Origin: Bacteroidota bacterium
Lineage (GTDB): Bacteria > Bacteroidota > Bacteroidia > Cytophagales > Cyclobacteriaceae
Length of the DNA: 64,000 nt
Assembly (NCBI GenBank): GCA_016178785.1
Contig: JACOSO010000058.1
Coordinates: forward strand, 1-64,000
Direction of reading: 5' to 3'
Part shown: one piece after another, positions 33,969 through 63,973 of the stretch
Numbering within the stretch: position 1 is the stretch's first letter
Layout of the letters: each line of letters starts with the position of its first letter
Program-made: the position numbers and the translations under genes
The notes under the pieces: model-generated
What the model saw: the letters and a program-made list of their open reading frames with translations, nothing else
What the model was told of the DNA's origin: nothing
Database searches by the model: none

Positions 33969-34003
33969 AGTTGAAAGTTATTAGTTAAAAGTTGAAAGTG
34001 ATC
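33969..34003. repeat. Heptamer array (AGTTGAA-like), 5 units
   Basis: Five units with exact 7-bp period and consensus AGTTRAA. It faces the array at 34021-34083, whose units read as the reverse complement (TTTCAAC), so the two could form a long imperfect hairpin. Confidence 0.75.
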
Positions 34004-34020
34004 TGAGTCGTTGGCTTATA

Positions 34021-34083
34021 CTTTAGGCTTTCTGCTTTCCGCTTTGAACTTATTACTTTCAACTCCCAACTTTCAACATAATC
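34021..34083. repeat. Heptamer array (CTTTCAA-like), 9 units
   Basis: Nine consecutive 7-bp units with consensus CTTTCAA (variants CTTTAGG, CTTTCTG, CTTTGAA, CTCCCAA) and no phase slip. It ends 34 bp before the deoxyhypusine-synthase-like gene, so it lies in the 5' leader or promoter zone. Confidence 0.85.
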
Positions 34084-34117
34084 CTGTATTTTCGCGTCAA
34101 AATTTGCAACCACGATT

Positions 34118-35092
34118 ATGAGTAACAGACCGATCTCTGCCTTCATTGAAAAGAATTATCTGCACTTCAACGCGGCTGCGTTGGTAGATGCGGCCAAAGG
34201 ATATAAAAAACACATTGCCGAAGGCAAGAAAATGCTGGTATCGCTGGCCGGTGCCATGAGCACGGGCGAACTGGGCATCAGCTTTGCCGAGATGATCCGC
34301 CAGAATAAAGTGCACATCATTTCATGTACCGGTGCCAACCTGGAAGAAGACATCATGAACCTGGTCGCGCACTCGCACTACAGGCGCATTCCCAACTACC
34401 GTGATCTCACGCCTGAACAAGAGTGGGATTTATTGAAGAATCACTTGAACCGTGTAACTGACACGTGCATTCCGGAGGAAGAAGCTTTCCGCAAGTTGCA
34501 AAAGCACCTGTTCAAAGTGTGGAAAGATGCCGAAGACAAAGGCGAGCGTTTGTTTCCGCATGAGTTCATGTTCCGCATGATCAACAGCAGTGACCTGAAA
34601 CAATACTATGAGATCGACCCGAAAAATTCGTGGATGATCGCGGCTGCCGAAAAGAACATGCCGATGGTGGTGCCGGGCTGGGAAGACTCTACGATGGGAA
34701 ATATTTTTGCTTCGTACTGCCTGACGGGCGAACTGAAAGCGAGCACGATGAAGAGCGGCATTGAATACATGGTGTGGCTTGCCGACTGGTACACGAACAA
34801 TGCTGGCGAAGATGGCATCGGCTTCTTCCAGATTGGCGGTGGTATCGCTGGCGACTTCCCGATTTGTGTTGTGCCAATGTTGCATCAGGATTTGGAACGC
34901 GATGGCGTTCCGTTCTGGAGTTACTTCTGCCAGATTTCTGATTCCACTACAAGCTACGGTTCATACTCAGGTGCTGTGCCCAACGAAAAAATCACGTGGG
35001 GAAAACTGAGCATCGACACTCCGAAGTTTATTGTAGAGAGCGATGCGACTATTGTGTGTCCGTTGATGTTTGCTTATATACTTGACATGTAG
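34118..35092 (+). CDS. Deoxyhypusine synthase-like protein
   Basis: 324 residues. The NAD-binding core (LVSLAGAMSTGELG, HIISCTGANLEEDIMN), GIGFFQIGGGIAGDFPIC and the C-terminal active-site region KITWGKLSID with Lys296 match the deoxyhypusine synthase family (human Lys329 is in the same setting, SWGKI). Bacteria have no eIF5A, and bacterial members are thought to act on small molecules, for example as homospermidine-synthase-like enzymes, or to have an unknown role. All recognisable catalytic features are kept. Cytoplasmic, probably tetrameric by family. Confidence 0.88.
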   Translation: MSNRPISAFIEKNYLHFNAAALVDAAKGYKKHIAEGKKMLVSLAGAMSTGELGISFAEMIRQNKVHIISCTGANLEEDIMNLVAHSHYRRIPNYRDLTPEQEWDLLKNHLNRVTDTCIPEEEAFRKLQKHLFKVWKDAEDKGERLFPHEFMFRMINSSDLKQYYEIDPKNSWMIAAAEKNMPMVVPGWEDSTMGNIFASYCLTGELKASTMKSGIEYMVWLADWYTNNAGEDGIGFFQIGGGIAGDFPICVVPMLHQDLERDGVPFWSYFCQISDSTTSYGSYSGAVPNEKITWGKLSIDTPKFIVESDATIVCPLMFAYILDM

Positions 35093-35206
35093 GCCTCACC
35101 CCCAACCCCTCTCCGGTTGGAGAGGGGAGCAAGTTCCTCTTCGGGGAGAGGGACTTTTCAACTTTAAATTCTCCCTTCTCCCCCGGAGAAGGGCCGGGGA
35201 TGAGGC
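35093..35206. repeat. GCCTCA...TGAGGC palindromic element, long copy
   Basis: 114 bp starting GCCTCACCCC and ending GGGGATGAGGC. Contains CCCTCTCC/GGAGAGGG and TTCTCCC/GGGAGAA-type stems. It fills the space between the stop of the preceding gene (35092) and the argS ATG (35207) to the base. A short copy is at 58013-58081. Confidence 0.85.
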
Positions 35207-36994
35207 ATGAATCTCGACTTAGCACTACGTACTTCAATTCAGCAAGCAGTAACTGCTCTCTTCAATCAGCAAGTAGAGCAGCTGCAAATACAACCTACCA
35301 ACCAGGAGTTTGAAGGCTCGCATACGTTGGTGTGTTTTCCTTTGACGAAGATTTCGAAGAAGGGGCCGGAGCAGACGGCTACTGCGATTGGTGAATATCT
35401 TGTTGTTAATTCTGGAATTGTTTCGCGATTCAATGTGGTGAAGGGTTTTTTGAATTTGGTGATTGCGGATAAAGTTTGGGTGGAAGTTTTTCAATCCATC
35501 TTCGCGAATAAGAACTTTGGTTTGTTAGAGAAGAATGGGAGAGAGGTGATGGTGGAGTATTCTTCGCCTAATACCAACAAGCCTTTGCACTTAGGTCACC
35601 TGAGAAATAATTTCCTCGGCTATTCTGTTGCTGAAATTTATAATGCGCTTGGCTTCACAGTGCACAAAGTACAGATCATTAACGACCGCGGTATTCATAT
35701 TTGTAAAAGTATGGCTGCGTGGAAATTGTATGGTAATGGTGAAACTCCGCAGAGCAGTGGGTTGAAAGGCGACAAGCTTGTAGGGAAATATTATGTAGAG
35801 TTCGACAAGAATTACAAGGCTCAGATGAAGGAGCTTGTGGAGAAGGGGATGAGTGAGGCGGAAGCAGAGAAGAAAGCTCCAATCATGTTATTGGCAGTAG
35901 AGATGTTGCAGAAGTGGGAGGCGAAAGATGAAGCTACTGTGCAACTCTGGAAGGCAATGAACGGCTGGGTGTATGACGGCTTTGAGTCAACGTACAAGAG
36001 AATGGGCGTTGACTTTGAGAAGTTGTATTACGAATCGAATACATATCTGCTAGGAAAAGAAGAAGTGTTGAGAGGAGTGGAGTCAGGCGTGTTCTTTAAA
36101 AAAGAAGATGGTTCTGTTTGGGTTGATTTAACTTCAGATGGTCTTGATCAAAAAGTGTTGTTGCGTGGCGATGGAACTTCGGTGTACATGACGCAAGATA
36201 TCGGCACTGCTATTTTGCGTTTCCGCGATTTCCCGAAAATAGAAGGACAAGTTTATACAGTTGGTAACGAGCAGGAATATCACTTCAAAGTGTTGTTCCT
36301 GATTTTGAAAAAGCTTGGCTACAAGTGGGCCGAGAAGTGTTATCACCTTTCGTATGGAATGGTTGATCTGCCATCGGGCAAAATGAAATCGCGCGAAGGC
36401 ACTGTTGTCGATGCTGATGACTTGATGCAAGAGATGGCAGACGATGCTGAAAAGCAGACTCGTGAGATTGGTAAAACCGAAGGCGCTACCGATGCCGAGA
36501 TCAAAGATCTTTCTGAAATGATTGGTCTTGGTGCGTTGAAGTTTTTCTTGTTGAAGGTGGATCCGAAGAAAAGAATGTTGTTCGACCCGAATGAGTCCAT
36601 TCAATTGCAAGGACATACAGGGCCGTTTATTCAATACACACATGCGCGCATTCGCGCGATCATACGCAAGGCGGAGTCGATGGGGGTGAAGCCAACGAAA
36701 TCTGAGTTGACTCAGGTGACTTCATTAGAACCTGCCGAACGCGAAGTAGTTTTCATGGTCAACAACTACATCAACAAGTTGAGTGAAGCTGCACGCGATT
36801 ATTCTCCTGCAGTGGTTGCTAACTTTGCTTTTGATCTGGCTAAAGGATACAACCATTTCTATCAGTCCATTCCTATCTTCAACGAAACGGATCAGGCGAA
36901 ATTGAAATTCAGAATTGCCTTTTCACAAGTGGTGGCTGATGTGCTGAAGAAGTCTATGCGCGTGTTGGGGATTCAAGTTCCTGAAAAGATGTAA
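35207..36994 (+). CDS. argS: Arginyl-tRNA synthetase
   Basis: 595 residues, normal for ArgRS. N-terminal Add-1 domain, class I signature region SPNTNKPLHLGHLRN with the HIGH-type HLGH at 128-131, and KMKSREGT in place of KMSKS, as in many bacterial ArgRS, and the C-terminal anticodon-binding domain (GHTGPFIQYTHARIRAI). Charges tRNA-Arg; essential. The start codon touches the palindromic element at 35093-35206, leaving no other leader, so expression must come through or from that element or from the gene upstream. Confidence 0.96.
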   Translation: MNLDLALRTSIQQAVTALFNQQVEQLQIQPTNQEFEGSHTLVCFPLTKISKKGPEQTATAIGEYLVVNSGIVSRFNVVKGFLNLVIADKVWVEVFQSIFANKNFGLLEKNGREVMVEYSSPNTNKPLHLGHLRNNFLGYSVAEIYNALGFTVHKVQIINDRGIHICKSMAAWKLYGNGETPQSSGLKGDKLVGKYYVEFDKNYKAQMKELVEKGMSEAEAEKKAPIMLLAVEMLQKWEAKDEATVQLWKAMNGWVYDGFESTYKRMGVDFEKLYYESNTYLLGKEEVLRGVESGVFFKKEDGSVWVDLTSDGLDQKVLLRGDGTSVYMTQDIGTAILRFRDFPKIEGQVYTVGNEQEYHFKVLFLILKKLGYKWAEKCYHLSYGMVDLPSGKMKSREGTVVDADDLMQEMADDAEKQTREIGKTEGATDAEIKDLSEMIGLGALKFFLLKVDPKKRMLFDPNESIQLQGHTGPFIQYTHARIRAIIRKAESMGVKPTKSELTQVTSLEPAEREVVFMVNNYINKLSEAARDYSPAVVANFAFDLAKGYNHFYQSIPIFNETDQAKLKFRIAFSQVVADVLKKSMRVLGIQVPEKM

Positions 36995-37002
36995 CCCAAT
37001 CG

Positions 37003-37554
37003 ATGAAATATCTTCTCGATGGACAAGAGACTGAGAGACTAATCTTTCGAAAGATTCAAAGATCAGATTTTGACCAGTGGCTGGAATTTTTCAAAGACCC
37101 AAGAACATCGGAACATTGGATAGAAGAAAAAGAATCACCTGAAAAGGAATGTACCAAGTGGTATGAAAAACAATTCAGCCGTTATAAAAACGACAAAGGA
37201 GGAATGAATGCCTTGATCGAGAAGAAGGGCGGCAAACTGATTGGCCATTGCGGGCTGCTAGTGCAAACTATCGACAATACCTTTGAACTTGAGATAGGGT
37301 ATTCACTTTTGTCTGAGTTCTGGAACAGAGGTTTCGCTACCGAAGCAGCGAACTATTGTAAGGATTTTGCTTTTCAAAATGAACTAACAGAATCGCTGAT
37401 TTCAATTATCAGTCTCACCAATATTCAGTCAGGGAAAGTGGCAATAAAAAATGGAATGACCGCGGAGAAAACTACCACTTATAACGGGAATCTTGTAAAT
37501 ATATTCCGTATTAAGAAGGTTGATTGGGAGAAATTAACCGTTCACAAAGAATAG
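37003..37554 (+). CDS. GNAT (RimJ/RimL-type) N-acetyltransferase
   Basis: 183 residues. ETERLIFRKIQRSDFDQW is the usual start of RimJ-type enzymes; acetyl-CoA site GYSLLSEFWNRGFATEA (Q/RxxGxA-like NRGFAT). Probable cytoplasmic acetyltransferase for a protein N-terminus or small molecule. Starts 8 bp after argS and may be co-transcribed. Confidence 0.85.
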   Translation: MKYLLDGQETERLIFRKIQRSDFDQWLEFFKDPRTSEHWIEEKESPEKECTKWYEKQFSRYKNDKGGMNALIEKKGGKLIGHCGLLVQTIDNTFELEIGYSLLSEFWNRGFATEAANYCKDFAFQNELTESLISIISLTNIQSGKVAIKNGMTAEKTTTYNGNLVNIFRIKKVDWEKLTVHKE

Positions 37555-37637
37555 CGGGAGCGTCACAATTTTTCATTTAGCAAACACAAACTTTTTTCAG
37601 TCATTTGTATTACAAGTAACGTTAAACCAATTCCCGT

Positions 37638-38129
37638 ATGAAACTCGCAGTAATTCTTTCGTTTATGCTGGCAGCTTCCTCTTTATACGATTTCAAAATG
37701 AATTCGCTTGAGGGCAAAGAAATCGATTTCGCAAAATTCAGGGGCAAAACACTTTTGATTGTAAACGTGGCATCGAAGTGTGGATACACTCCGCAATATG
37801 CCGACCTACAAAAGCTACATGACCTTTATGGTGACAAAGTAACTCTACTTGGATTCCCTGCCAATAATTTTGGAGCACAGGAGCCCGGCACCAATGCAGA
37901 GATCGGTGAGTTCTGCAAGAAAAATTATGGAGTTACATTTCAAATGTTCGAGAAGCTTTCTGTAAAGGGAGAAGATCAGCATCCACTATACGCATGGCTG
38001 AAAGAAAAAACAGGACAAGAACCAACCTGGAATTTCTGTAAGTATTTGGTAAAGCCCGATGGTACTGTAAAATTCTTCAATCAAAAAGTAAAGCCGCTCG
38101 ATGAGCAGATTGTTAGTGAACTAAAATGA
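37638..38129 (+). CDS. Glutathione peroxidase-like thiol peroxidase 1
   Basis: 163 residues. Peroxidatic Cys48 in NVASKCGYTPQY, NNFGAQEPG with the active-site Gln, a conserved Cys in EFCKKNYGVTF and WNFCKYLV with Trp and Asn complete the catalytic tetrad. A hydrophobic N-terminus (MKLAVILSFMLAASS) suggests export. Cys enzymes of this family generally use thioredoxin rather than glutathione. Its stop overlaps the next gx-like gene by 4 bp: a tandem duplicate. Confidence 0.9.
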   Translation: MKLAVILSFMLAASSLYDFKMNSLEGKEIDFAKFRGKTLLIVNVASKCGYTPQYADLQKLHDLYGDKVTLLGFPANNFGAQEPGTNAEIGEFCKKNYGVTFQMFEKLSVKGEDQHPLYAWLKEKTGQEPTWNFCKYLVKPDGTVKFFNQKVKPLDEQIVSELK

Positions 38130-38650
38130 GATTAGCTCATATTGTTTCTTTTTTCTCGGGACTATTTTCACCATCTAAAAAAAAAGAGGTTGCCAGTTCT
38201 ATTTACGATTTCAAAATTAAGAGTCTGAGCGGGAAAGAAGTTGATTTCTCTCAATATCGTGGACAGCAACTTCTATTGGTAAATACAGCTTCCAAGTGTG
38301 GCTTTACCCCGCAGTATAAAGGACTTGAGAAATTGCATGAACAGTTCCGAGACAAGATAAAAGTGCTTGGATTTCCGGCAAATAATTTTTTGAGACAAGA
38401 GCCAGGAACAAATGCTGAGATCGCGGAGTTTTGCGAACTCAATTATGGAGTGACATTCCCGATGTTCGAAAAAATCTCAGTTAAAGGATCTGACCAGCAT
38501 CCGCTGTATCGATGGCTTGAGTCGAAAACGGGTAAAAGACCTGACTGGAATTTCGCAAAGTATTTGGTGAGTGAGGATGGTAACAAAGTTATATTCTTTA
38601 AGGCTTCCGTGCAGCCGATGGATCAGAGGATTATTGAGAGGATCAACTAA
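38126..38650 (+). CDS. Glutathione peroxidase-like thiol peroxidase 2
   Basis: 174 residues, roughly two-thirds identical to the preceding gene. Peroxidatic Cys58 in NTASKCGFTPQY, NNFLRQEPG, AEFCELNYGVTF and WNFAKYLV keep the active site. The N-terminus is different and longer (SFFSGLFSPSKKKE) and may be a weak anchor or signal. Translationally coupled to the first copy through the ATGA overlap. Both likely remove lipid or organic hydroperoxides. Confidence 0.9.
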   Translation: MRLAHIVSFFSGLFSPSKKKEVASSIYDFKIKSLSGKEVDFSQYRGQQLLLVNTASKCGFTPQYKGLEKLHEQFRDKIKVLGFPANNFLRQEPGTNAEIAEFCELNYGVTFPMFEKISVKGSDQHPLYRWLESKTGKRPDWNFAKYLVSEDGNKVIFFKASVQPMDQRIIERIN

Positions 38651-38675
38651 TAAGAAACTTTCGTAATTTTGATTT

Positions 38676-38915
38676 ATGGATGAAAAGAAGTTGCTTTCAC
38701 GGATTACAATTGATTCCGAAATTTGTCATGGCAAGCCTGTGATCAGAGGTTTGCGTTATCCTGTTGAAAACATGATTGAGTTGATGGCTTCAGGTATGAC
38801 AATTTCCGAATTGTTAAAAGATTATCCAGATCTTGAGGAAGAAGATTTTTACGCATGCCTTTTGTTTGCAGCGAACTACTTAAGAGCAAAAGAAATATAT
38901 AAGGTTGCTTCTTGA
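38676..38915 (+). CDS. DUF433 antitoxin
   Basis: 79 residues: RITIDSEICHGKPVIRGLRY, helix-turn-helix-like VENMIELMASGMTISELL, DYPDLEEEDFYACLLFAANYL. Third DUF433 locus in the window. Its stop overlaps the TTG start of the DUF5615 gene. A TAATTTTG box at about 38660-38667 may be its own -7 element. Confidence 0.88.
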   Translation: MDEKKLLSRITIDSEICHGKPVIRGLRYPVENMIELMASGMTISELLKDYPDLEEEDFYACLLFAANYLRAKEIYKVAS

Positions 38916-39265
38916 AATTTATTTTAGACGCTCAGTTGCCCGTTTTTCTTTGCCATTGGTTGACCGAAAAGGGATATCCAAGTATTCATACATCCTTTCT
39001 TCCCTATAAAAATAAGACCCCTGATAGTAAAATTCTGGAGTTGGCAGAAGCAGAGGGGCGTGTTGTAGTATCAAAGGACACTGATTTTTATAAAAGTTTT
39101 TTTGTGAGAGGGAAACCTAAGAAGCTTCTCCTTGTCTCAACAGGAAATATTAAGAACTCAGAATTGAAACACCTATTTGAGTCAAATATAGATCGAATCG
39201 CAGGATTTTTCGAGCAACACTCTGTTCTTGAATTAACTAGAAATAATATCATCATACATCAATGA
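38912..39265 (+). CDS. DUF5615 PIN-like toxin
   Basis: 117 residues from a TTG start that overlaps the DUF433 stop (TTGA); no ATG fits. KFILDAQLPVFL and VVVSKDTDFYKSF carry the acidic residues of the PIN-like core, and LVSTGNIKNSEL the third motif, as in the copy at 33241-33594. Its stop overlaps the menA start by 4 bp (ATGA), so a toxin gene is translationally joined to a respiratory-quinone gene. Confidence 0.85.
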   Translation: MKFILDAQLPVFLCHWLTEKGYPSIHTSFLPYKNKTPDSKILELAEAEGRVVVSKDTDFYKSFFVRGKPKKLLLVSTGNIKNSELKHLFESNIDRIAGFFEQHSVLELTRNNIIIHQ

Positions 39266-40149
39266 AAATCTGGCTTTCCGCATTTCGGCTTCGCACACTT
39301 CCACTTTCCCTTTCTTGCATTGGCATGGGAGGTTTTCTTGCTGCAGCACAAGACAAGTTCAATGGATTGATTTTTTTTCTTTGTTGTGCCACCACTGTAT
39401 TTCTTCAGATTCTTTCCAACTTGTCGAATGATTATGGAGACACAGTCAACGGTGCAGACCATGCCGACCGAAAGGGACCGCAACGCGCTGTGCAGTCAGG
39501 AGCGATCTCTGCATCACAAATGAAAATTGCGATTTTGATATTCGTTGTTCTTTGCCTGATCAGCGGAATTTTGTTGCTGTACACCTCCTTTGGATTTGAA
39601 CTCAAATCGTTCCTCTTTTTCCTCGGGCTGGGGTTTCTTTCCATCATTGCCGCGATTGCTTACACGGTAGGTAAAAAACCATACGGTTACATCGGCCTTG
39701 GCGATCTTTCGGTTTTGATTTTCTTTGGATTAGTTGGCGTAATGGGTTCTCAATATTTGTTTACAAAAAGTTTTTTTGTGATTCAGATTTTGCCAGCGTT
39801 AAGTTGTGGTTTCTTTTCAATTGCCGTGCTCAATATCAATAACATCCGCGATATCGAATCAGATAGGTCAGCTGGAAAATTTTCTATTCCGGTGCGCATC
39901 GGCAAAGAGCGTGCAACCACCTATCATTGGGTATTGCTATTTGGAGGCATGGCGAGTGCATTGATTTTTGTTGTTATCAACTTCCACTCTCCCTGGCAAT
40001 TATTGTTTCTCCTGACTGCTCCCTTAATGTTTCTCAATGGAAGGAAAGTCTCAGCTCTTCCTTCAGAGGAGCTTGATCCGTTGCTAAAACAAATGGCTCT
40101 TTCCACTCTTTTGTTTGTTCTGCTCTTCGGAATTGGAAATTTGCTTTAG
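39262..40149 (+). CDS. menA: 1,4-dihydroxy-2-naphthoate polyprenyltransferase
   Basis: 295 residues, UbiA-superfamily membrane enzyme with about eight to nine helices. First prenyl-diphosphate motif region NDYGDTVNGADHADRKGPQR, second region NNIRDIESDRSAGKFSIPVR. The opening WLSAFRLRTLPLSLSCIGMGG is characteristic of MenA. It joins the polyprenyl chain to DHNA in menaquinone synthesis. Start fixed by this N-terminus, which proves that the overlap with the DUF5615 stop is real. Confidence 0.93.
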   Translation: MKIWLSAFRLRTLPLSLSCIGMGGFLAAAQDKFNGLIFFLCCATTVFLQILSNLSNDYGDTVNGADHADRKGPQRAVQSGAISASQMKIAILIFVVLCLISGILLLYTSFGFELKSFLFFLGLGFLSIIAAIAYTVGKKPYGYIGLGDLSVLIFFGLVGVMGSQYLFTKSFFVIQILPALSCGFFSIAVLNINNIRDIESDRSAGKFSIPVRIGKERATTYHWVLLFGGMASALIFVVINFHSPWQLLFLLTAPLMFLNGRKVSALPSEELDPLLKQMALSTLLFVLLFGIGNLL

Positions 40150-40224
40150 TAACCTCAAATCGCTTAAAAAAATCATTATCTTGTTTCCTTATACCTGCGA
40201 CACAATAACTCAAAAACATTTCTT

Positions 40225-41073
40225 ATGAGAAAAATTCTGGTTCCCGTAGATTTTTCAAAAACATCGGCTACCGCGTTTGATGTAGCATTTGACATTGCAA
40301 AGAAAGATGGCGCTGAACTTGTCGCTATGAATGTGGTAGAAGAAATCACTCCTGAGTCTTACCGTGTGACTGGCGAGTGGCACAAAGCCGATTGGCAAGA
40401 CAGAATTTTTACCTATGAGCTTCTAAAAAAATCGAAAGCACAGTTGGAGAAACTGGTGAGCGACCCAAAATATGCAGCCGTGAAAATTACTGGTGAATTG
40501 CGGGTTGGAAATCCTTATCATGGAATCACAACAATTATTACCGAGAAGAAAGTTGATTTAGTGGTGATGGGCACGAAGGGCCATTCTAAACTTGAAGAAA
40601 TGGTGATCGGCACCAACACTGAGAAAGTAGTTAGACTGTCGCGCTGCCCTGTATTGACTGTTCAGAAGAAACCTGCTACAACTGATTTTAAAAATATAGT
40701 TTATGCTACATCGATGTCGCCCGAAGAAGAAGTGTTTTCAAGATTTGTGAAGCGTACACAGCAGATATATGATTCAACCATTCATTTAGTCCGTATTAAC
40801 ACACCGTCTAATTTTCAACGCGACAGCATTTCAAAAGATAACTTATCCAGATATGCAAAAAAACTAGGCATAAAGAATTGTACCATCAACGTGTACAATG
40901 ATACTTCTGAGGAGGAGGGCATTATTTATTTTGCCGAGAGCATCAACGCAGATTTGATAGCTATGGCCACGCATGGGCGCACCGGCTTCGCGCACGTGAT
41001 GGCCGGAAGTATTGCCGAAGATGTAGTTGGCCACTCGAAAAGGCCGGTTCTTACTTTTGTTGTTAAGCACTGA
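40225..41073 (+). CDS. Tandem UspA universal stress protein
   Basis: 282 residues with two Usp domains (about 1-148 and 153-282). First ATP-binding loop VVMGTKGHSKLEEMVIGTNTEKV, second IAMATHGRTGFAHVMAGSIAEDV; both keep the Gly-x2-Gly-x9-Gly-Ser/Thr pattern. Two-domain forms are common in Bacteroidota. Followed by a terminator at 41094. Role in stress or energy limitation by family. Confidence 0.9.
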   Translation: MRKILVPVDFSKTSATAFDVAFDIAKKDGAELVAMNVVEEITPESYRVTGEWHKADWQDRIFTYELLKKSKAQLEKLVSDPKYAAVKITGELRVGNPYHGITTIITEKKVDLVVMGTKGHSKLEEMVIGTNTEKVVRLSRCPVLTVQKKPATTDFKNIVYATSMSPEEEVFSRFVKRTQQIYDSTIHLVRINTPSNFQRDSISKDNLSRYAKKLGIKNCTINVYNDTSEEEGIIYFAESINADLIAMATHGRTGFAHVMAGSIAEDVVGHSKRPVLTFVVKH

Positions 41074-41093
41074 TTGCCTTCATTTCAATATTC

Positions 41094-47528: not shown

Positions 47529-47532
47529 GAGT

Positions 47533-47560
47533 CGGCAGTTGGCAGGTAGCAGTAGGCAGT
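47533..47560. repeat. Heptamer array (NGGCAGT-like), 4 units
   Basis: Four exact 7-bp units with consensus YRGCAGT directly after the TPR gene. Different wording but same period as the other arrays in the window. A vaguer AAAGTTA-type repeat follows near 47604-47626. Confidence 0.7.
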
Positions 47561-52008: not shown

Positions 52009-52164
52009 CCCAATGTCGTTTCTAGTTAAGGGCTTGTAAGTTCAGGATACCAGTTAACGACATTGATTCAAGATTTAAAATTCGAGATTCAGCATTGTTT
52101 GGACTAAGCTAATTTTGAACCTTGAATCTGGAACTTAATTGCCTCGCTTAATTAAACGACATTG
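52009..52164. repeat. Inverted-repeat-bounded element containing two heptamer arrays
   Basis: CAATGTCGTTT (52011-52021) and AAACGACATTG (52154-52164) are exact inverted repeats, with matching AGTTAAG/CTTAATT just inside. A third AACGACATTG is at 52056-52065. Two 7-bp-period arrays lie inside: 52067-52094 (TTCAAGA-like, 4 units) and 52113-52140 (YCTTGAA-like, 4 units). The rest of the gap to 52328 has no gene. Confidence 0.6.
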
Positions 52165-54993: not shown

Positions 54994-55042
54994 AATCTGA
55001 AAATATGTAATCTGTAATCTAATACTGCCAATCTGAAATTGA
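54994..55042. repeat. Heptamer array (TAATCTG-like), 7 units
   Basis: Seven consecutive 7-bp units with core AATCTGA/TAATCTG, without phase slip, directly after the frnE-like gene. The same core AATCTGT occurs in the array between trpE and trpG (59524-59551). Confidence 0.75.
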
Positions 55043-56347: not shown

Positions 56348-56462
56348 CAGAACAGAATCGATCAATACCAATTGCAATTCTCATGAATATTTTTCTTCTA
56401 TCAAAATTTGATTGTCAATTGTTCAAAGTCATTGATCCAGTGCATTTGATCAAATCATAAAT

Positions 56463-56490
56463 TGTACATTGTAAATCTTAAATCTATTTA
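56463..56490. repeat. Heptamer array (TGTAAAT-like), 4 units
   Basis: Four 7-bp units (TGTACAT, TGTAAAT and two CTTAAAT-like) that end exactly at the nhaA start codon, so they form its 5' leader. The 7-bp rhythm can be followed weakly upstream to about 56407. Confidence 0.6.
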
Positions 56491-57630: not shown

Positions 57631-57640
57631 TCTGCCGATT

Positions 57641-57671
57641 TTTGTATCTCCGAAAATCATCCTTATACTTG
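57641..57671 (+). promoter_or_regulatory. Bacteroidota-type promoter of thx (and probably trp)
   Basis: TTTG (57641-57644), 19 nt, TATACTTG (57664-57671), matching the Bacteroidota housekeeping consensus TTTG-N19-TAnnTTTG. It lies 21 bp before the thx ATG. No comparable promoter was seen between thx and trpE, so this one may drive the trp leader too. Confidence 0.7.
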
Positions 57672-57692
57672 CGACATAATTTTTAATATTAA

Positions 57693-57875
57693 ATGGGAAG
57701 AGGAGATAAAAAATCCAAAAAAGGAAAACGCACGCAGGGGTCATTCGGTGTTTCAAGAAACCGCAAAAAGATCAAAGCCAGATTGAAAAGAACAGCGAGC
57801 AAGAAACCAGCAAAAGCTGCCGGTGAGGCGGCAAAACCAAAAGCCCGTAAAGTAGCTAAGAAGAAAGAAGAATAA
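57693..57875 (+). CDS. 30S ribosomal protein THX (bTHX)
   Basis: 60 residues, extremely basic. MGRGDKKSKKGKRTQGSFGVSRNRKK is the THX signature (short peptide bound in the head of the 30S subunit), followed by a Lys/Ala-rich tail common in Bacteroidota. Length is longer than Thermus Thx because of that tail. Stop is 3 bp before the trp leader ATG. Confidence 0.9.
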   Translation: MGRGDKKSKKGKRTQGSFGVSRNRKKIKARLKRTASKKPAKAAGEAAKPKARKVAKKKEE

Positions 57876-57878
57876 ACA

Positions 57879-57953
57879 ATGATACTATTTTCAAACAATG
57901 CATGGTGGTGGCACAGGTCAAACTTTGATCGGTGCAGGATTGCGCTTTGTTGA
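57879..57953 (+). CDS. trpL: trp operon leader peptide (trpL)
   Basis: 24 codons from ATG 57879 to TGA 57951: MILFSNNAWWWH then RSNFDRCRIALC. Three Trp codons in a row (57903-57911) in so short a frame, directly upstream of a strong terminator and trpE, are the hallmark of a leader peptide for ribosome-mediated attenuation. Low charged tRNA-Trp would stall the ribosome at these codons and favour an antiterminator. Confidence 0.85.
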   Translation: MILFSNNAWWWHRSNFDRCRIALC

Positions 57954-57975
57954 AAAACAATAAATCTCATTTGAG

Positions 57976-58012
57976 AAGCCCGCCCGATCATTCGAGCGGG
58001 CTTTTTTTTTGG
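57976..58012 (+). terminator. trp attenuator hairpin
   Basis: AAGCCCGC (57976-57983) and GCGGGCTT (57996-58003) form an 8-bp GC-rich stem followed by a run of T. The loop holds CCGATCA (57984-57990), complementary to TGATCGG (57926-57932) in the leader, just after the Trp codons, and GAAGC/GCTTT can extend this, giving a competing antiterminator. Confidence 0.85.
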
Positions 58013-58081
58013 GCCTCACCTAGATCCTCTCCAGAGGAGAGAATTCTGCGTTCTCCTCTGGAGAAGAGTTGGGGATGAGGC
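58013..58081. repeat. GCCTCA...TGAGGC palindromic element, short copy
   Basis: 69 bp, GCCTCACC at one end and GGGGATGAGGC at the other, with an inner long hairpin (TCTCCAGAGGAGA/TCTCCTCTGGAGA-like, around GAATTCTGCG). Same ends and style as 35093-35206. It is inserted between the trp attenuator and trpE. Confidence 0.85.
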
Positions 58082-58116
58082 TTAAAGATGAAAAGGAAAA
58101 AGATATCAACGAACCA

Positions 58117-59514
58117 ATGAAAACTTATAAACTGAATACTCACTATAAAAAACTCCTGGCCGACACGCTAACACCGGTGAACATCTACTTAAAAGTGCGC
58201 GATGTTTTTGCGGGGAGCATTTTGCTTGAGAGCTCCGACTATCACGGGCGAGAGAACAGCTTGTCACTGATTTGTTGTGAACCTATCGCTTCATTTGAAA
58301 TGCAAAACGGAAAAGTACAAATGCAATTCCCTGACGGAATGGCAAATGAAATAAACATTGAGAGGGGGCGTACGAATCTTCCGCATCTTCTTGACGAATT
58401 CAAAAACTCATTTGAATTGGAGGCAAACGGAAACTTTAAGTCGATGGGTCTCTTCGGTTACACAGCTTATGATGCCGTTCGCTATTTTGAAGATGTAAAA
58501 ATAGAGCCAGTGCTTTCGTCAATTCCAGACATGGTATACAAACTGTATCGCTATGTAATTGTAGTTGACCATTTCTTCAATGAGTTGAAATTGCACGAGT
58601 TTGCGTTTGGAGATCAACCCAGTTCGCTGGATCGTGTCGAACAAATTATTTTTAGCAACCGATTCTCCACTTTCAAGTTTCAGGGAGATGAAAATGAAAC
58701 TTCCAATATATCAGACAACGAATTCTTAGAGGCAGTTGAAAAAGCCAAACAACATTGCAACCGGGGCGATGTTTTTCAAATGGTTTTGTCGAGAAGATTT
58801 ACCAGGCCATTCAAAGGCGATGAGTTTAATGTTTACCGCTCACTTCGCTCGATCAACCCCTCTCCTTATCTTTTTTATTTTGACTACGGAAGCTTCAAAC
58901 TTTTTGGTTCATCACCTGAGGCTCAATTGCAAGTTAAAGGCAATCAAGCCTTCATTTACCCGATTGCAGGAACGTTTAGAAGAAGCGGAAACGATCAGGA
59001 AGATGCAGTCATTGCTGAGCGCTTGTGTGCCGATGAAAAAGAAAATGCTGAACATGTGATGCTGGTAGATCTCGCTCGCAACGACATGAGTCGAAATGCT
59101 GATCATGTGACCGTTGAAGTGTTCAAAGAAATCCAATACTATTCTCACGTCATCCATTTAGTTTCAAAAGTGTCGGGTAAGCTTAGTAAAGATTCGCCAA
59201 CGGTGCAGATTTTCGCTGATACTTTTCCAGCAGGCACACTATCAGGCGCGCCTAAAGTGATGGCAATGAATTTGATTAACAAGTATGAAAATGTGAATCG
59301 GGGTTTTTACGGTGGAGCAATTGGTGTGATTGGTTTTGATGGTTCATTGAATAAGGCCATTATGATCCGAACTTTTTTGAGCAAGGGCAATCAATTGATT
59401 TATCAGGCAGGAGCAGGGATTGTTTCTAAGTCGGACAAAGAGAAAGAATTGCAAGAGGTGAACAACAAACTTGAAGCCTTACGTAAGGCAATAAAAATCG
59501 CTGAATCAATTTGA
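58117..59514 (+). CDS. trpE: Anthranilate synthase component I
   Basis: 465 residues from the ATG at 58117 (MKTYKLNTHYKKLLADTL); the frame is open from 58069, but the earlier part lies in the palindromic element. LLES in the N-terminal lobe (SILLESSDYHG) is the Trp feedback site. The C-terminal chorismate-binding part has GSSPEAQL, YPIAGTFRR, ERLCADEKENAEHVMLVDL, TFPAGTLSGAPK and AGAGIV. Converts chorismate and ammonia to anthranilate with TrpG. First gene of the trp operon under the attenuator. Confidence 0.96.
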   Translation: MKTYKLNTHYKKLLADTLTPVNIYLKVRDVFAGSILLESSDYHGRENSLSLICCEPIASFEMQNGKVQMQFPDGMANEINIERGRTNLPHLLDEFKNSFELEANGNFKSMGLFGYTAYDAVRYFEDVKIEPVLSSIPDMVYKLYRYVIVVDHFFNELKLHEFAFGDQPSSLDRVEQIIFSNRFSTFKFQGDENETSNISDNEFLEAVEKAKQHCNRGDVFQMVLSRRFTRPFKGDEFNVYRSLRSINPSPYLFYFDYGSFKLFGSSPEAQLQVKGNQAFIYPIAGTFRRSGNDQEDAVIAERLCADEKENAEHVMLVDLARNDMSRNADHVTVEVFKEIQYYSHVIHLVSKVSGKLSKDSPTVQIFADTFPAGTLSGAPKVMAMNLINKYENVNRGFYGGAIGVIGFDGSLNKAIMIRTFLSKGNQLIYQAGAGIVSKSDKEKELQEVNNKLEALRKAIKIAESI

Positions 59515-59523
59515 TAGTTTGAA

Positions 59524-59551
59524 AATCTGCAATGTGAAATCTGTAATCTTA
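59524..59551. repeat. Heptamer array (AATCTGN), 4 units, between trpE and trpG
   Basis: Four 7-bp units with consensus AATCTGW in the 44-bp trpE-trpG gap. Same wording as the array at 54994-55042. Confidence 0.7.
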
Positions 59552-59558
59552 AATAGAC

Positions 59559-60125
59559 ATGAAAATAGTAGTCATCGATAATTACGATTCCTTCACTTAC
59601 AATCTGGTGCATATCATTCGTGCGCTGGGTCATCAACCTGACATTTTCAGGAATGATAAAATTGAGGTAGATAAGGTGAATGGGTACGATAAAATTTTGC
59701 TTTCACCAGGACCTGGCATTCCCGATGAAGCCGGGATCATGAAACAAGTGATTGAAACTTACGCACCAATAAAGAGCATTCTGGGAATCTGCCTCGGCCA
59801 TCAGGGCATTGCGGAAGTGTTTGGAGCAAAGCTGTACAACATTCCGGATGTGCTGCATGGAGTGACTTCAGAGGCGCAAGTGAAAGATCGCTCGGAGAAA
59901 ATGTTCGATAATGTTCCAGACTTGTTTCAATGCACGCATTATCATTCGTGGGCAGTTAGACCTGAAAGTATCCCTTCTGAATTGAAAGTTACTTCAGTGA
60001 ATGGCGAAGGATTGGTTATGGCGCTCAGGCACGTGAAATATGATGTAAAAGGCCTTCAGTTTCATCCTGAATCAGTGATGACACCCGAAGGACCAAAGAT
60101 GATTGAGAATTGGCTGAAAACTTAA
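59559..60125 (+). CDS. trpG: Anthranilate synthase component II (glutamine amidotransferase)
   Basis: 188 residues, class I glutamine amidotransferase. Nucleophile Cys78 in GICLGHQGIAEVFGAKL and the His-Glu pair in QFHPESVMTPEG near the C-terminus. DNYDSFTYNLVH at the start is typical of TrpG/PabA. It passes ammonia to TrpE. No fusion with TrpD. Confidence 0.96.
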   Translation: MKIVVIDNYDSFTYNLVHIIRALGHQPDIFRNDKIEVDKVNGYDKILLSPGPGIPDEAGIMKQVIETYAPIKSILGICLGHQGIAEVFGAKLYNIPDVLHGVTSEAQVKDRSEKMFDNVPDLFQCTHYHSWAVRPESIPSELKVTSVNGEGLVMALRHVKYDVKGLQFHPESVMTPEGPKMIENWLKT

Positions 60126-60160
60126 TTCAAGCTGCTTCAAATTAATTGAGCCGTTGGATT

Positions 60161-60207
60161 TTCGAACTTTGAACCTTGAACTTTGAACCTGAACCTGAAC
60201 TTTGAAG
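60161..60207. repeat. Heptamer array (TTTGAAC), 7 units, between trpG and trpD
   Basis: Seven units of TTTGAAC type, two of them shortened to six bases (CTGAAC), ending 3 bp before the trpD ATG. Confidence 0.8.
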
Positions 60208-60210
60208 AAA

Positions 60211-61197
60211 ATGAAACAAGTACTCGCAGAATTAATCGACCACAAATCGCTGACCAAAGAAACAGCACGACAAGTGTTGATCGATTTGGCCTCAGGAAAA
60301 TTTAATCCGAGCCAAACTTCAGCATTCATGACTGTCTATATGATGCGTGGTATCACAGTAGATGAGCTCGCGGGTTTTCGCGATGCAATGCTTGAACTTT
60401 GCATTCCTGTAAAATTCGAAGAGCCTGTGATGGATTTGTGCGGCACTGGTGGCGATGCAAAAAACACTTTTAATATTTCAACGATGTCTTCTTTTGTGGT
60501 GGCTGCCGCAGGGCAACCTGTGGCAAAACATGGTAATTATGGTGTGTCATCGCTATCAGGCTCTTCCAACATTCTGGAATACTTTGGTTACAAGTTTACC
60601 AACGACAAAGATGAATTGAAACGCTGTCTTGACCGGGCGAATATTTGCTTCATGCACGCACCATTATTTCACCCGGCCATGAAAAATGTGGCGCCTATTC
60701 GTAAAGAACTTGGAGTAAAAACTTTTTTCAATATGCTGGGGCCAATGGTGAACCCCGCTTTTCCAAAGAGACAATTGGTGGGAGTGTTTAACTTAGAGCT
60801 GGCAAGACAGTACGGCTACTTATATCAACAAACAGAAAAAGATTTCGTGATTTTGCATTCGCTCGATGGCTATGACGAGATTTCATTGACAAGCGCATTC
60901 AAATATTTTTATAATGGAGGTGAAGAGATGAGCACAGCTTCACAACTTGGCTTGCCCCAATTAGCCCAGTCGGATTTGGTAGGAGGAAACACGATGGATG
61001 AATCTGCAAGAATTTTCATAAGTGTACTCGAAGGAAAAGGAACTCCGGCACAAAATGCAGTAGTGACCGCCAATGCAGGGATGGCGCTGTATTGTGCTGA
61101 CCAAAATTCAGGATTGCAGAATGGATTGACGAAAGCAAAAGAAGCATTGGAATCGGGAAAAGCGTTGAATGCTTTTAAGAAATTGATTGAGAAATAG
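60211..61197 (+). CDS. trpD: Anthranilate phosphoribosyltransferase
   Basis: 328 residues from the ATG at 60211; a TTG at 60202 is unlikely. DLCGTGGDAKNTFNISTMSSFVVAAAG and KHGNYGVSSLSGSSNILE are the PRPP and anthranilate-binding motifs; FFNMLGPMVNP follows. Transfers phosphoribose to anthranilate. The RBS region overlaps the end of a heptamer array. Confidence 0.96.
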   Translation: MKQVLAELIDHKSLTKETARQVLIDLASGKFNPSQTSAFMTVYMMRGITVDELAGFRDAMLELCIPVKFEEPVMDLCGTGGDAKNTFNISTMSSFVVAAAGQPVAKHGNYGVSSLSGSSNILEYFGYKFTNDKDELKRCLDRANICFMHAPLFHPAMKNVAPIRKELGVKTFFNMLGPMVNPAFPKRQLVGVFNLELARQYGYLYQQTEKDFVILHSLDGYDEISLTSAFKYFYNGGEEMSTASQLGLPQLAQSDLVGGNTMDESARIFISVLEGKGTPAQNAVVTANAGMALYCADQNSGLQNGLTKAKEALESGKALNAFKKLIEK

Positions 61198-61203
61198 AGG
61201 TTG

Positions 61204-61259
61204 GGACTTGGGGATTAGGACTTTGGACTTAGACATTAGGACTTAGGCATTAGGACTTG
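61204..61259. repeat. Heptamer array (GGACTTA/GGCATTA), 8 units, between trpD and trpC
   Basis: Eight consecutive 7-bp units with consensus GGAYTTA and no slip, starting 7 bp after the trpD stop. A TAGACAT repeat follows to about 61279, then TTTTGAA units to 61309. The most regular array in the window. Confidence 0.88.
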
Positions 61260-61317
61260 GGTATAGACATTAGACATAGAAATGGGATCTTGAATTTTGA
61301 ATTTTGAAACGTTATCG

Positions 61318-62100
61318 ATGAATATACTTGATCAAATTATAGCACATAAAAAGAAAGAAGTTGCTGAAAGACAGACCATCTATCCCGTAAAGCAACTCGA
61401 GCAAAGTGTTTTGTTTTCTCGATCTACTTTTTCTTTAAAAGAGTCTCTTCAACAAAAAAACGTATCAGGAATTATAGCTGAATTCAAGCGGCAATCACCA
61501 TCGAAAGGAGTGATCAACGCTGATGCGGATGTTGAGCAAACAACGAAAGGGTATATTGATGCAGGGGCAAGTGCACTTTCTATTCTTACCGACAAATATT
61601 TTTTTGGTGGGAGCAATACTGATTTGATCAAAGCCCGATCAATTAATGCTTGTCCGATCTTAAGAAAAGACTTTGTCGTTGACGAGTATCAAGTCATTGA
61701 AGCAAAATCGATTGGGGCTGACGTTGTGCTTTTGATTGGGGCAGCGCTTTCACCTCAGCGATTGCGCACGTTGGCGACTTTTGCTCACTCGCTAAATCTT
61801 GAAGTTTTATTGGAAGTTCATTCCCTTGAAGAATTGCAAATGCATTTATCTTCAAAAGCAGATTTGATTGGAGTGAACAATCGTGACCTGAAAACTTTTG
61901 AAGTGAATTTGGATGTATCCAGAAAATTATCTGAACATATTCCCGAGGAAGTAGTTAAAATCTCTGAGAGCGGGATTGCCTATCCCGAAACTGTTATTGA
62001 ATTGCGAAAGTTCGGCTATGAAGGATTTTTGATGGGCGAGAATTTTATGAAGCAAAATCGACCGGAAGTTGCGGCAAGAGAATTTATTGAGTCATTGTAG
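61318..62100 (+). CDS. trpC: Indole-3-glycerol phosphate synthase
   Basis: 260 residues from the ATG at 61318 (MNILDQIIAHKKKEVAER, standard for the family). TIM barrel with GIIAEFKRQSPSKG (catalytic Lys), ALSILTDKYFFGG, PILRKDFVVDEYQV, LIGVNNRDLKTFEV and KISESGI. Closes the indole ring from CdRP. Separate from TrpF, unlike E. coli. Nine bases separate it from trpF. Confidence 0.96.
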   Translation: MNILDQIIAHKKKEVAERQTIYPVKQLEQSVLFSRSTFSLKESLQQKNVSGIIAEFKRQSPSKGVINADADVEQTTKGYIDAGASALSILTDKYFFGGSNTDLIKARSINACPILRKDFVVDEYQVIEAKSIGADVVLLIGAALSPQRLRTLATFAHSLNLEVLLEVHSLEELQMHLSSKADLIGVNNRDLKTFEVNLDVSRKLSEHIPEEVVKISESGIAYPETVIELRKFGYEGFLMGENFMKQNRPEVAAREFIESL

Positions 62101-62109
62101 GACTATCTG

Positions 62110-62751
62110 ATGAGAAAAAGAATAAAACTGAAAGTCTGCGGAATGCGCGATCCGAAAAATATTATGGAGATCGCAGGACTAAGCCCCGATTTCATGGGTT
62201 TTATTTTTTATAAAAAATCGAAACGTTTTGTGGGGGAAGAATTTTCTGTCCCGCGAGGCTTTCCCGATAACATAAAAAAAGTAGGGGTTTTTGTGAACGA
62301 AAGTGTTGAGATTGTTTTAAAACAAGTGTCTATGCACCGACTTGATTTTGTTCAACTGCATGGCGATGAATCTGCAGAACTGTGTGGAGAATTGAAGAAA
62401 AAAACTAAAGTGATTAAAGTTTTTCGAATAGATGAATCATTTGATTTCAATTCAATCAGGGAGTTTAATTCTTATGCCGATTTCTTTTTGTTCGATACGA
62501 AAGGAGATAATTTTGGCGGCACCGGAAAAAAATTCAATTGGGACTTGCTGAAACAATATGATCAGCAAATTCCTTTTTTTCTGAGCGGGGGGTTATCAAC
62601 TGAGAATGCTCATGAAGCGGAAAAACTCAAAAGCATGAACCTCCATGCTATTGATGTAAACAGCGGTGTTGAATCGTCTCCTGCTGTGAAAGACTTGAAA
62701 AAAATAAAACAAGTGCAAGAAATACTGACTTCTAACTTCTTTTCAAAATGA
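62110..62751 (+). CDS. trpF: Phosphoribosylanthranilate isomerase
   Basis: 213 residues, TIM barrel: [12 protein letters not shown] with catalytic Cys10, [32 protein letters not shown] and [12 protein letters not shown]. Converts PRA to CdRP. Overlaps trpB by 4 bp (ATGA). Confidence 0.95.
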
Positions 62752-63929
62752 AATACCAAGTAGATGAGCGCGGTTACTATGGAAAATTTGGCGGGGCCTT
62801 TATTCCGGAAATGCTCTATCCCAACGTAGAAGAGCTTCGAACAAATTATGTGTCTATAATTGAGTCCGAAGATTTTAAAAAAGAATTTGATGACTTGCTG
62901 CGCAATTATGTCGGCAGACCAACACCCCTGTTCTTGGCAGAACGCTTGTCAGAAAAGTATAAAGCTAAAATTTATCTAAAGCGCGAAGATCTTTGCCACA
63001 CAGGTGCGCACAAGATCAACAATACAATTGGGCAGATCTTATTGGCCAAAAGATTAGGTAAACAAAAAATCATTGCTGAGACAGGGGCAGGTCAGCATGG
63101 TGTAGCTACAGCGACCGTGTGCGCACTGATGGGTATGGAGTGCATTGTATACATGGGCAAGCTCGACATGGAGAGGCAACGACCAAATGTCGAACGTATG
63201 CGAATACTCGGAACAAAAGTAGTGCCGGCAATCTCGGGTAACATGACATTGAAGGACGCCACCAATGAAGCGATGCGACATTGGATAAACCATCCAACCG
63301 ATACGCATTATATTATTGGTTCGGTCGTAGGTCCACATCCATATCCTGATATGGTTGCACGATTTCAGTCGGTGATTAGTCAAGAAATTAAAAATCAATT
63401 GACCAATGAAACAGGAAACCCATTTCCGGATTACGTGATTGCTTGTGTCGGTGGCGGAAGCAATGCCGCTGGCGCTTTCTATCATTTTTTGGATGATGAG
63501 CATGTCAACTTGATTGGTGTGGAAGCAGCAGGTAAGGGGGTAGATACAAATGAGTCGGCCGCCACAACTGCCTTGGGTAAAATCGGAATTTTGCACGGGA
63601 GCAAATCGCTGCTCATGCAAACCGAAGATGGTCAAGTGATCGAACCTTACTCTATTTCTGCGGGACTGGATTATCCGGGCATCGGGCCGATGCACGCACA
63701 TTTGTTTAGCACCGGCCGAGTACAATTTTTAAACGCAACTGATGATGAAGCGATGAATGCAGGAATTGAGCTGAGCAGGCTGGAGGGAATTATCCCAGCG
63801 ATTGAAAGTGCTCATGCAGTGGCTGTGTTAAAAAAGCTGGAATTGAGTGATGAAGATATTGTAGTTGTAAACCTTTCCGGTCGAGGAGACAAAGATTTGG
63901 AAACTTATATTAAGTGGGGGAAATACTGA
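62748..63929 (+). CDS. trpB: Tryptophan synthase beta chain
   Basis: 393 residues. PLP Lys89 in HTGAHKINN, phosphate loop [30 protein letters not shown] and [14 protein letters not shown]. TrpB1-type that works with TrpA. Coupled to trpF through a 4-bp overlap. Condenses indole with serine. Confidence 0.97.
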
Positions 63930-63937
63930 AACAGCAA

Positions 63938-63973
63938 TTCAAGATATAAAATTCCATATTCAAAAATTCAAAG
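63938..63973. repeat. Heptamer array (ATTCAAA-like), 5 units, between trpB and trpA
   Basis: Five 7-bp units with one 1-bp slip, consensus ATTCAAA, filling the trpB-trpA gap. Confidence 0.65.

Follow-up and report, generated by a model that had tools for sequence, protein, structure and literature searches.

Tandem heptamer arrays between the genes of a Cyclobacteriaceae bacterium often form the arms of imperfect palindromes

In this work we describe tandem arrays with a 7-bp period that lie between the genes of a Bacteroidota bacterium of the family Cyclobacteriaceae (assembly GCA_016178785.1), in a stretch of 64,000 nucleotides from contig JACOSO010000058.1 (referred to here as the window), elsewhere in the genome and in its relatives. 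These loci are probably single arrays or imperfect palindromes with arms of 7-nt units, or also 8-nt units in relatives, that grow and shrink through slippage, are tolerated outside genes and are mostly neutral. The arrays have the look of by-products of DNA copying rather than of switches.

The period-7 signal was assessed in a 464 kb genome sample comprising the window, C28:1-160000 and C85:1-240000 and containing 256 gaps 20 bp or longer (41,260 bp in total). Genes were called with a simple codon-score script, so that gap edges are approximate. At a segment score of at least 12, and with expectations taken from 20 shuffles, gaps held 23 period-7 arrays compared with 0.2 in dinucleotide-shuffled sequence; periods 3-6, 9, 10, 12 and 13 gave none, period 11 one, period 8 two and period 14 nine. 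The 422 kb called as coding contained three period-7 segments, one of which (34016-34077) is in fact a gap that a weak, spurious ORF call covers. The 7-bp arrays of the preliminary description extend beyond the window, and their location in gaps is upheld, as is the absence of the signal from shuffled sequence. Relative to 40 shuffles, intergenic autocorrelation rose to z=7.5 at lag 7, z=9.0 at lag 14 and z=4.0 at lag 21, and hence the excess at lag 7 on which the idea had been staked was present; the peak had, however, been expected at 7 only in a scan of lags 3-15, and lags 6 (z=5.5), 5 (z=4.0) and 3 (z=3.8) were raised as well, such that it is the array count and not the autocorrelation that is confined to 7. 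A 50 kb E. coli control with 4.7 kb of gaps yielded no arrays at periods 4-15, and no Rfam family reached threshold in the window. Intergenic tandem 7-nt units in excess of shuffles are a property shared with heptanucleotide STRR/LSSR repeats, and a common process seems needed, as had been argued at the outset.

Within the window, each place listed initially was compared with 1000 dinucleotide shuffles of its gap (lowest attainable p 0.001; all coordinates are given for the + strand). Ten of the twelve were significant; the best period-7 segment near 15769 (15810..15823, p=0.15) was not, nor was a weak candidate 3' of trpB, listed at 63938 (63951..63975, p=0.10), where period 8 outscores period 7. 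The places listed at 33969 and 34021 (p=0.001 each) share the identical best segment, 34016..34077, an (ACTTTCA)n array that forms the right arm of a palindrome and is the inverted complement of the left arm, (AGTTGAA)n at 33969..33999, in a divergent gap; the inverted partner score of this left arm, 18.5, was equalled in 0 of 30 other array-bearing gaps. No inverted partner was found for the single (AGTYGGC)n array at 47530..47560 (listed at 47533; p=0.001) in a co-directional gap. Left and right arms, (GATTYAA)n at 52065..52090 (listed at 52067; p=0.017) and (TTGAAYC)n at 52113..52133 (p=0.019), lie within a 154-bp dispersed repeat (52011..52164) with 10-bp inverted ends, CAATGTCGTT and AACGACATTG. 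The unit (AATCTGT)n occurs in a convergent gap at 55002..55020 (listed at 54994; p=0.002) and occupies most of the trpE-trpG gap at 59524..59554 (p=0.001), and an (AAATYKT)n array lies 5' of an NhaA antiporter gene at 56452..56485 (listed at 56463; p=0.001). The trpG-trpD gap carries (TTGAACY)n at 60154..60188 (listed at 60161; p=0.001), and the trpD-trpC gap carries (GGACTTA)n at 61201..61261 (listed at 61204; p=0.001) together with a second array, (TTGAATT)n, at 61287..61308; inverted second arrays are absent for the arrays in all trp gaps of the window.

A feature overlooked in the preliminary description is that arrays frequently pair up as the arms of an imperfect palindrome. Among 40 arrays, inverted partners scored 10.1 in the same gap compared with 6.0 in other array-bearing gaps (p=3.5e-5), whereas direct partners of the same arrays did not differ (6.5 vs 6.1, p=0.59). 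In other species, pooling periods 7 and 8 (96 arrays), inverted partners were again raised (9.8 vs 6.4, p=5e-6), but so were direct partners (8.2 vs 6.3, p=0.0008); restricted to period 7, the advantage of inverted over direct partners was not clear (paired p=0.059). A later set, consisting of 5 new stretches and 51 of 60 sdhB and glpK loci (the other 9 come from this genome or G002, G013, G024, G031 and G063), departs in composition from the set laid down in advance and is partly dependent on the earlier data, as some gaps had been seen before and trp loci of several of its genomes belonged to the discovery set; its 15 arrays gave a suggestive result for inverted partners (p=0.064) and p=0.12 for direct partners. 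A simpler palindrome test, in which at most 3 of 60 shuffles reach the score, separated the classes more weakly (16/30 array gaps, 12/40 sampled other gaps). Furthermore, polarity is fixed: clustering matches that fall on both strands with neighbours at most 130 bp apart, one heptamer occupied the 5' arm in 46 of 46 listed cases from three families, a count that includes 12 copies of the 154-bp repeat and was drawn from 76/76, 100/120 and 100/121 of the families' matches. A rule placing AG on the 5' arm (41 vs 4, with 7 ties, among 52 hairpins), chosen after six dinucleotide pairs had been inspected, was dropped when array hairpins of the later set gave 1 vs 2 in 5; non-array hairpins of that set followed it in 14 vs 2 of 22, where none or a much weaker bias had been predicted. 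As a lead only, the 5' arm was the G-rich one in 35 vs 12 of the 52 hairpins (p=0.001) and in 4 vs 1 of the later set.

The arrays had been thought to differ in sequence at each locus, a view that our data do not sustain, since the heptamers fall into dispersed families. Genome matches exceeded those of reversed controls for TAGTCSA (76 vs 4), GTTAATS (120 vs 1) and RGATTYAA (121 vs 0), and these three families together account for 132 listed match clusters. The 40 arrays reduce to 25 distinct consensus units, AT-rich for most, and 16 pairs of identical consensus heptamers were shared between different gaps, when 500 letter permutations gave 1.9 such pairs on average and never more than 8; this null disregards neighbour preferences. 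The 154-bp repeat has at least 16 genome copies including this one, the others being 82-93% identical over the matched part; the listed loci are thus not unrelated, as the 52067/52113 pair lies inside it, and with its short length, terminal inverted repeats and multiple copies the element is a candidate MITE. Between species, the pattern TTGAACY is rare, matching in 12 of 58 relatives (own genome included) and, across the phylum, in 4 of 60 genomes; its reversed control also matches a few genomes (G006 6, G099 1, G103 9), as expected if other heptamers exist. Heptamers of trp loci compared between species showed no excess at 7/7 identity (8 pairs; permuted mean 2.5, maximum 9), and at 6/7 identity or better formed 70 pairs compared with a permutation maximum of 55.

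Relatives of this bacterium carry similar arrays, which differ between orthologous gaps. In 80 named loci, 40 period-7 arrays were found with 0.7 expected; a period that is always 7 is true of this genome, but the relatives also carry period-8 arrays (22 vs 0.7), and both periods recur in the later set, where 8 arrays of period 7 and 5 of period 8 were counted with 0.1 expected for each. In the operon gaps of trp, sdh and glp, orthologues hold an array in some species and lack it in others: counting the own genome each time, arrays were present in 7/30 sdhA-sdhB, 4/30 glpF-glpK and 6/21 glpK-glpD gaps, the names sdhA-sdhB and glpF-glpK having been assigned by reading proteins. Perfect arrays also exist: one species has (ATTCTAA)x7 in its trpF-trpB gap, a second has eleven or more copies of (ATTCTAA) there, its contig beginning within the array, and a third has (CTTCTAA)x8. 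The comparison of copy number that had been proposed for strains, made here between relatives and between copies of one repeat, revealed whole-unit changes in sevens at few comparable loci, a behaviour characteristic of heptanucleotide STRR/LSSR repeats. In one gap of the G013/G024 pair one arm differs by 7 and the other by 14, and among the 15 distinct full-core copies of the 154-bp repeat one is shorter by 7 and another longer by 14. Excluding the G002/G033 pair, indels divisible by seven made up 3/7 in array gaps compared with 6/115 in other gaps (p=0.009); the remaining 4/7 array-gap indels are not multiples of seven.

These patterns probably reflect replication slippage with a 7-8-nt step that lengthens and shortens arms at hairpin-prone sites, with some hairpins having dispersed (one family inside a dispersed repeat) and others presumably arising in place. 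Selection would purge arrays from genes because steps of 7 and 8 break the reading frame, and the hairpins would be mostly neutral, serving neither as terminators nor as sites of a shared regulator. Slippage alone, however, yields neither inverted arms nor fixed polarity, so that ancestral dispersal or selection is also needed, and the restriction of the step to 7-8 nt counts against the slippage account, which gives no reason for it.

A possible but less favoured explanation is that the families are transposase-moved copies of an ancestral hairpin, as in a mobile REP-like palindrome, with the 7-nt units secondary. Dispersed palindrome families, as seen in REP/RAYT systems, do occur here, spread over tens of sites and fixed in polarity, and one of them is carried in a repeat with inverted ends; most TAGTCSA hairpins inspected by eye start with GTC and end with GAC, and the Y1_Tnp (IS200/RAYT-type) model PF01797 has 4 matches above cut-off in this genome. 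However, none of these four transposase loci has an array or family motif in the surrounding 3.2-3.3 kb, so that no repeats flank the transposase gene within that distance. Twenty TAGTCSA regions, viewed by eye without alignment, displayed no common flanks or loops and varied in unit order, and the families found in the glpF-glpK gap differ between this genome and its relative G031 (L249, L250). Somewhat less likely again is a sequence-agnostic hairpin-growing process with a 7-8-nt ruler, at work throughout the Cytophagales, which would extend both arms from many seeds with strand polarity fixed, and of which the heptamers of Xanthomonas, Nostoc and Beggiatoa would be outputs.

We regard as rather unlikely that the arrays are selected RNA or DNA regulatory elements, i.e. 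translation enhancers, mRNA stabilisers or protein-binding arrays, comparable to what has been proposed for TAACTGA in Beggiatoaceae. The fixed polarity of heptamers and the location of hairpins within likely operons (e.g. sdhA-sdhB and glpF-glpK) are consistent with such roles, but presence and sequence in the same gap change from species to species. In the larger set, mismatches in co-directional gaps showed no wobble bias (15 G.U vs 18 A.C), which speaks against selection at the RNA level; those of the later set (5 G.U vs 0 A.C) count against a DNA-only reading.

Intrinsic transcription terminators with stems periodic by accident are rated low, as a distinctly improbable source of the arrays. 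Fifteen folded regions gave -8.9 to -20.2 kcal/mol (raw values without shuffle comparison), and convergent gaps also hold arrays (1/27 here, 8/145 in relatives). The A-left/T-right bias is nevertheless missing in the 52 array hairpins (25 vs 23; other gap hairpins, 192 vs 118), and arrays here are commonest in co-directional (17/181) and divergent (6/46) gaps. Gap preference differs in relatives, where divergent gaps are the poorest in arrays (8/223). Chance or assembly artefact, to which the G065 contig beginning within an array might point, is scarcely credible given the shuffle and E. coli controls and the arrays in the single-contig genome G024 and in named isolates.

Contrary to the initial suggestion that no Bacteroidota counterpart had been described, MacGregor 2015 (PMC4679880) records TAACTGA, as well as 'other heptamer direct repeats', in Bacteroidetes gaps. 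As presented there, TAACTGA resembles our arrays in being an intergenic heptamer; five Bacteroidetes have it too, and in some of them other heptamers share its gaps. It is proposed as a translational control site and differs in being one unit in direct repeats, the main genome having a single indirect repeat. The GGGAATC arrays of Xanthomonas (Rehm et al. 2015, PMC4692102) are likewise intergenic heptamers whose length differs among relatives, and 70 and 75 cases are reported of two convergent arrays forming an inverted repeat, an arrangement found here for part of the arrays. Xanthomonas has one G-rich unit, whereas here there are many degenerate and mostly AT-rich units, with octamers in relatives. 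Kaasalainen et al. 2015 (PMC4476775) describe the P6b stem of the Nostoc tRNA-Leu intron as a string of 7-nt repeats (TDNGATT or NNTGAGT) in which units are gained and lost and one class can take the place of another at that position, but this is a single intron site. REP elements (PMC3733652) are also dispersed palindromes in numerous gaps; they measure 20-40 bp and are tagged on one side by GTAG or CGTC, and the portion of that source cited here describes no 7-nt period. The arrays may best be viewed as a variant form of two described systems, the Xanthomonas inverted heptamer pairs and the P6b stem of Nostoc trnL.

A preference for seven among longer simple sequence repeats in bacteria has been noted since 2007, its cause being guessed as slippage over a polymerase-sized DNA segment (Mrazek et al. 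2007, as cited in PMC4679880 and PMC4692102); the passages citing that work mention neither palindromes nor families, both of which mark the present arrays. For annotators, the many degenerate gap hairpins in Cytophagales need be neither terminators nor regulatory sites. In this bacterial group the preference for seven nucleotides is pronounced, accepts many sequences and goes together with palindromes; as close relatives differ in the copy number of perfect arrays, the step size and the enzymes involved become testable.

The period-7 feature is real, strong and widespread. In the 464 kb sampled from this 4.47-Mb, 100-contig genome (the window, C28:1-160000 and C85:1-240000), 256 intergenic gaps totalling 41,260 bp held 23 period-7 segments scoring at least 12, against 0.2 in 20 dinucleotide shuffles. 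The same gaps gave two segments at period 8, one at period 11 and nine at period 14, a multiple of seven, and none at periods 3-6, 9, 10, 12 or 13 at this threshold. Tested against 1000 shuffles of the gap in question, ten of the 12 heptamer sites listed in the preliminary description reached significance; those at 15769 and 63938 did not. Intergenic autocorrelation was highest at lags 14 (z=9.0) and 7 (z=7.5), although the peak predicted at 7 only was accompanied by raised values at lags 3, 5 and 6. Confinement to intergenic DNA, also claimed, held in the main, with three period-7 segments in 422 kb of called coding DNA, one of them in a false ORF covering a gap. No arrays at periods 4-15 were found in a 50-kb stretch of E. 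coli (4.7 kb of gaps).

Across relatives, 80 named loci around trpD (591 gaps, chiefly Cytophagales with some Flavobacteriaceae) gave 40 segments at period 7 and 22 at period 8, each against 0.7 in shuffles, four at period 11 (against 0.5), and 0-1 at each remaining period from 4 to 13. A further 17 genomes of the order (20 fetched stretches minus three below 8 kb) yielded 13 against 0.4 at period 7, seven of them from genome G037 alone, and six against 0.7 at period 8. Another 20 stretches, less three below 5 kb, gave four segments against 0.6 in nine genomes from the class's other orders, one against 0.0 in seven genomes from the phylum's other classes, where the genome concerned had been picked for an earlier heptamer-pattern match, and one against 0.0 in a different genus of the family. 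Load is uneven even within the window's own genus, where 100 kb from four species gave 2, 1, 1 and 0 segments. Period-8 arrays in relatives, including Algoriphagus, occur at loci L081, L082, L091, L110, L147, L151, L153 and others, some forming hairpins; L091 carries an additional 15-base unit readable as 7+8. In G037, which belongs to another family of the order, a long GGCAGTC/GACTGCC hairpin array occupies C1:16912-17461 (L160), and its unit recurs in a further gap. Locus L151 also has two insertions of 91-93 bp with similar sequence (ATGAAATCGAGC..), near 3403-3495 and 7836-7928, which are not present in close Algoriphagus relatives and resemble two copies of a single small mobile element.

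Many arrays form one arm of a palindrome. For 40 arrays in 31 gaps of the window's genome, the remainder of the array's own gap gave a best inverted match averaging 10.1, whereas other array-bearing gaps gave 6.0 (Wilcoxon p=3.5e-5; p<=0.05 for 16 of the 40). Direct matches showed no excess (6.5 against 6.1, p=0.59). The 96 period-7 and period-8 arrays of other species gave 9.8 against 6.4 for inverted matches (p=5e-6) and a smaller rise, 8.2 against 6.3 (p=0.0008), for direct ones; paired, inverted exceeded direct at p=0.003 for the two periods combined, 0.0095 for period 8 and 0.059 for period 7 alone. A plain best-palindrome search separates less well, exceeding shuffles in 16/30 array gaps and 12/40 sampled other gaps. 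For example, (GTTAATC)n..(GATTAAC)n fills the sdhA-sdhB gap at C85:74435-74534, C85:184816-184886 carries (TAGTCCA)n..(ATCGACC)n, and the window has an arm pair at 33969-33999 and 34016-34077. At 35093-35206 of the window, a C-rich inverted repeat, GCCTCACCCCCAACCCCTCTCCGG..CCGGAGAAGGGCCGGGGATGAGGC, lies in a gap and overlaps no period-7 or period-8 array.

The arrays had been thought to differ in sequence at every locus; instead, 16 pairs of different gaps share an identical consensus heptamer (mean 1.9, maximum 8, over 500 letter permutations), and families recur genome-wide, with 76 matches to TAGTCSA, 120 to GTTAATS and 121 to RGATTYAA against 4, 1 and 0 for reversed controls. Among the matches listed, both-strand clusters place the family unit first and its complement second in 46/46 cases (10, 19 and 17 per family). 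Random growth from a seed would be expected to give either arm order, unlike this fixed one. Twelve of the 17 RGATTYAA clusters are copies of a dispersed repeat and thus share one common origin; for TAGTCSA, inspection of 20 fetched regions by eye revealed no common flanks or loops.

This repeat is a 154-bp element (window 52011-52164) that encloses the arrays at 52067 and 52113 and ends in 10-bp inverted sequences, CAATGTCGTT and AACGACATTG. A genome search that scored 40 of 94 candidates found at least 24 matches; in at least 16 of them, the window's own copy among these, identity was 82% or more across no fewer than 103 bases of the query, and a further match spanned 62. Seventeen loci were aligned, of which L346 and L357 are one copy anchored twice and L361 is truncated. 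Core length in the 15 distinct full-core copies was 58 in ten, 59 in three, and 51 and 72 in one each, the outliers being minus one and plus two heptamers; the scripted core of 44 in L353 comes from a spurious end match, the copy being aligned without a gap. GATTYAA-type arrays also occur without the element's flanks (L338-L342).

Copy number changes between relatives at a few loci, a comparison that the preliminary description had proposed. Between G013 and G024, whose aligned blocks are 92-95% identical, one hairpin differs by 7 in its left arm and 14 in its right, and the glpK-glpD gap measures 100 and 117 bp. Indels were multiples of seven in 3/7 cases in array gaps against 6/115 in other gaps (p=0.009), the 115 counting pieces of one compound indel. 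A trp operon (trpE-G-D-C-F-B) takes up the window's final 6 kb and has array-bearing gaps of 44, 85 and 120 bp, whose arrays have no inverted partner in their own gaps; orthologous gaps are mainly short (medians 7.5 to 33 bp), and 10/385 hold period-7 arrays. In the trpF-trpB gap, G142 has (ATTCTAA)x7, G011 (CTTCTAA)x8 and G065 at least eleven ATTCTAA units; the G065 contig begins within this perfect array (L293:1-77), a sign that arrays may be under-counted in draft assemblies. When the top 30 loci per search were taken (58 and 62 genomes matched), with the window's genome included each time, period-7 or period-8 arrays occupied 7/30 sdhA-sdhB gaps, 4/30 glpF-glpK gaps and 6/21 glpK-glpD gaps. 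The sdhA-sdhB gaps can be as short as 2 bp, and weaker hairpins are visible in some gaps without a called array. The glpF-glpK gap carries different heptamer families in this genome and its relative G031 (L249, L250). A process copying any 7-bp seed, as first proposed, survives in part: slippage fits the length steps; recurring families in fixed order speak against random growth from a seed.

Period-7 and period-8 arrays occupied 17/181 co-directional, 1/27 convergent and 6/46 divergent gaps here, and 66/946, 8/145 and 8/223 in relatives. In co-directional gaps the transcribed strand carried 15 G.U and 18 A.C mismatches. AG lay on the 5' arm in 41 against 4 array hairpins of the discovery set; array hairpins lacked an A-left bias (25 against 23), which other gap hairpins showed (192 against 118). 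The 5' arm of array hairpins was also G-rich (35 against 12). Predictions were written down before a later set was analysed, although its make-up changed afterwards and some gaps had been read before. There, period 7 gave 8 and period 8 gave 5 segments, each against 0.1, with 0-1 at remaining periods from 4 to 13; the inverted-partner test was suggestive only (p=0.064; direct, p=0.12). In this small set the AG rule was not upheld, nor was the prediction that non-array hairpins have no AG bias (14 against 2), nor that of balanced mismatches (5 G.U, 0 A.C).

The feature's kind is ordinary, heptamer repeats and inverted pairs being already known. Published accounts describe heptamer arrays in Bacteroidetes (PMC4679880), for which the preliminary description knew of no described counterpart, the heptamer-repeat P6b stem of Nostoc (PMC4476775) and, in Xanthomonas, heptamer pairs in inverted orientation (PMC4692102). 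Searches of the open PMC literature found no description of palindromes built of degenerate heptamers throughout Cytophagales. What is new here is the sequence freedom, the palindromic build in this group and the 7-or-8 rule. We infer that the length steps arise by slippage, which by itself accounts for neither the 7-8 ruler nor the polarity.
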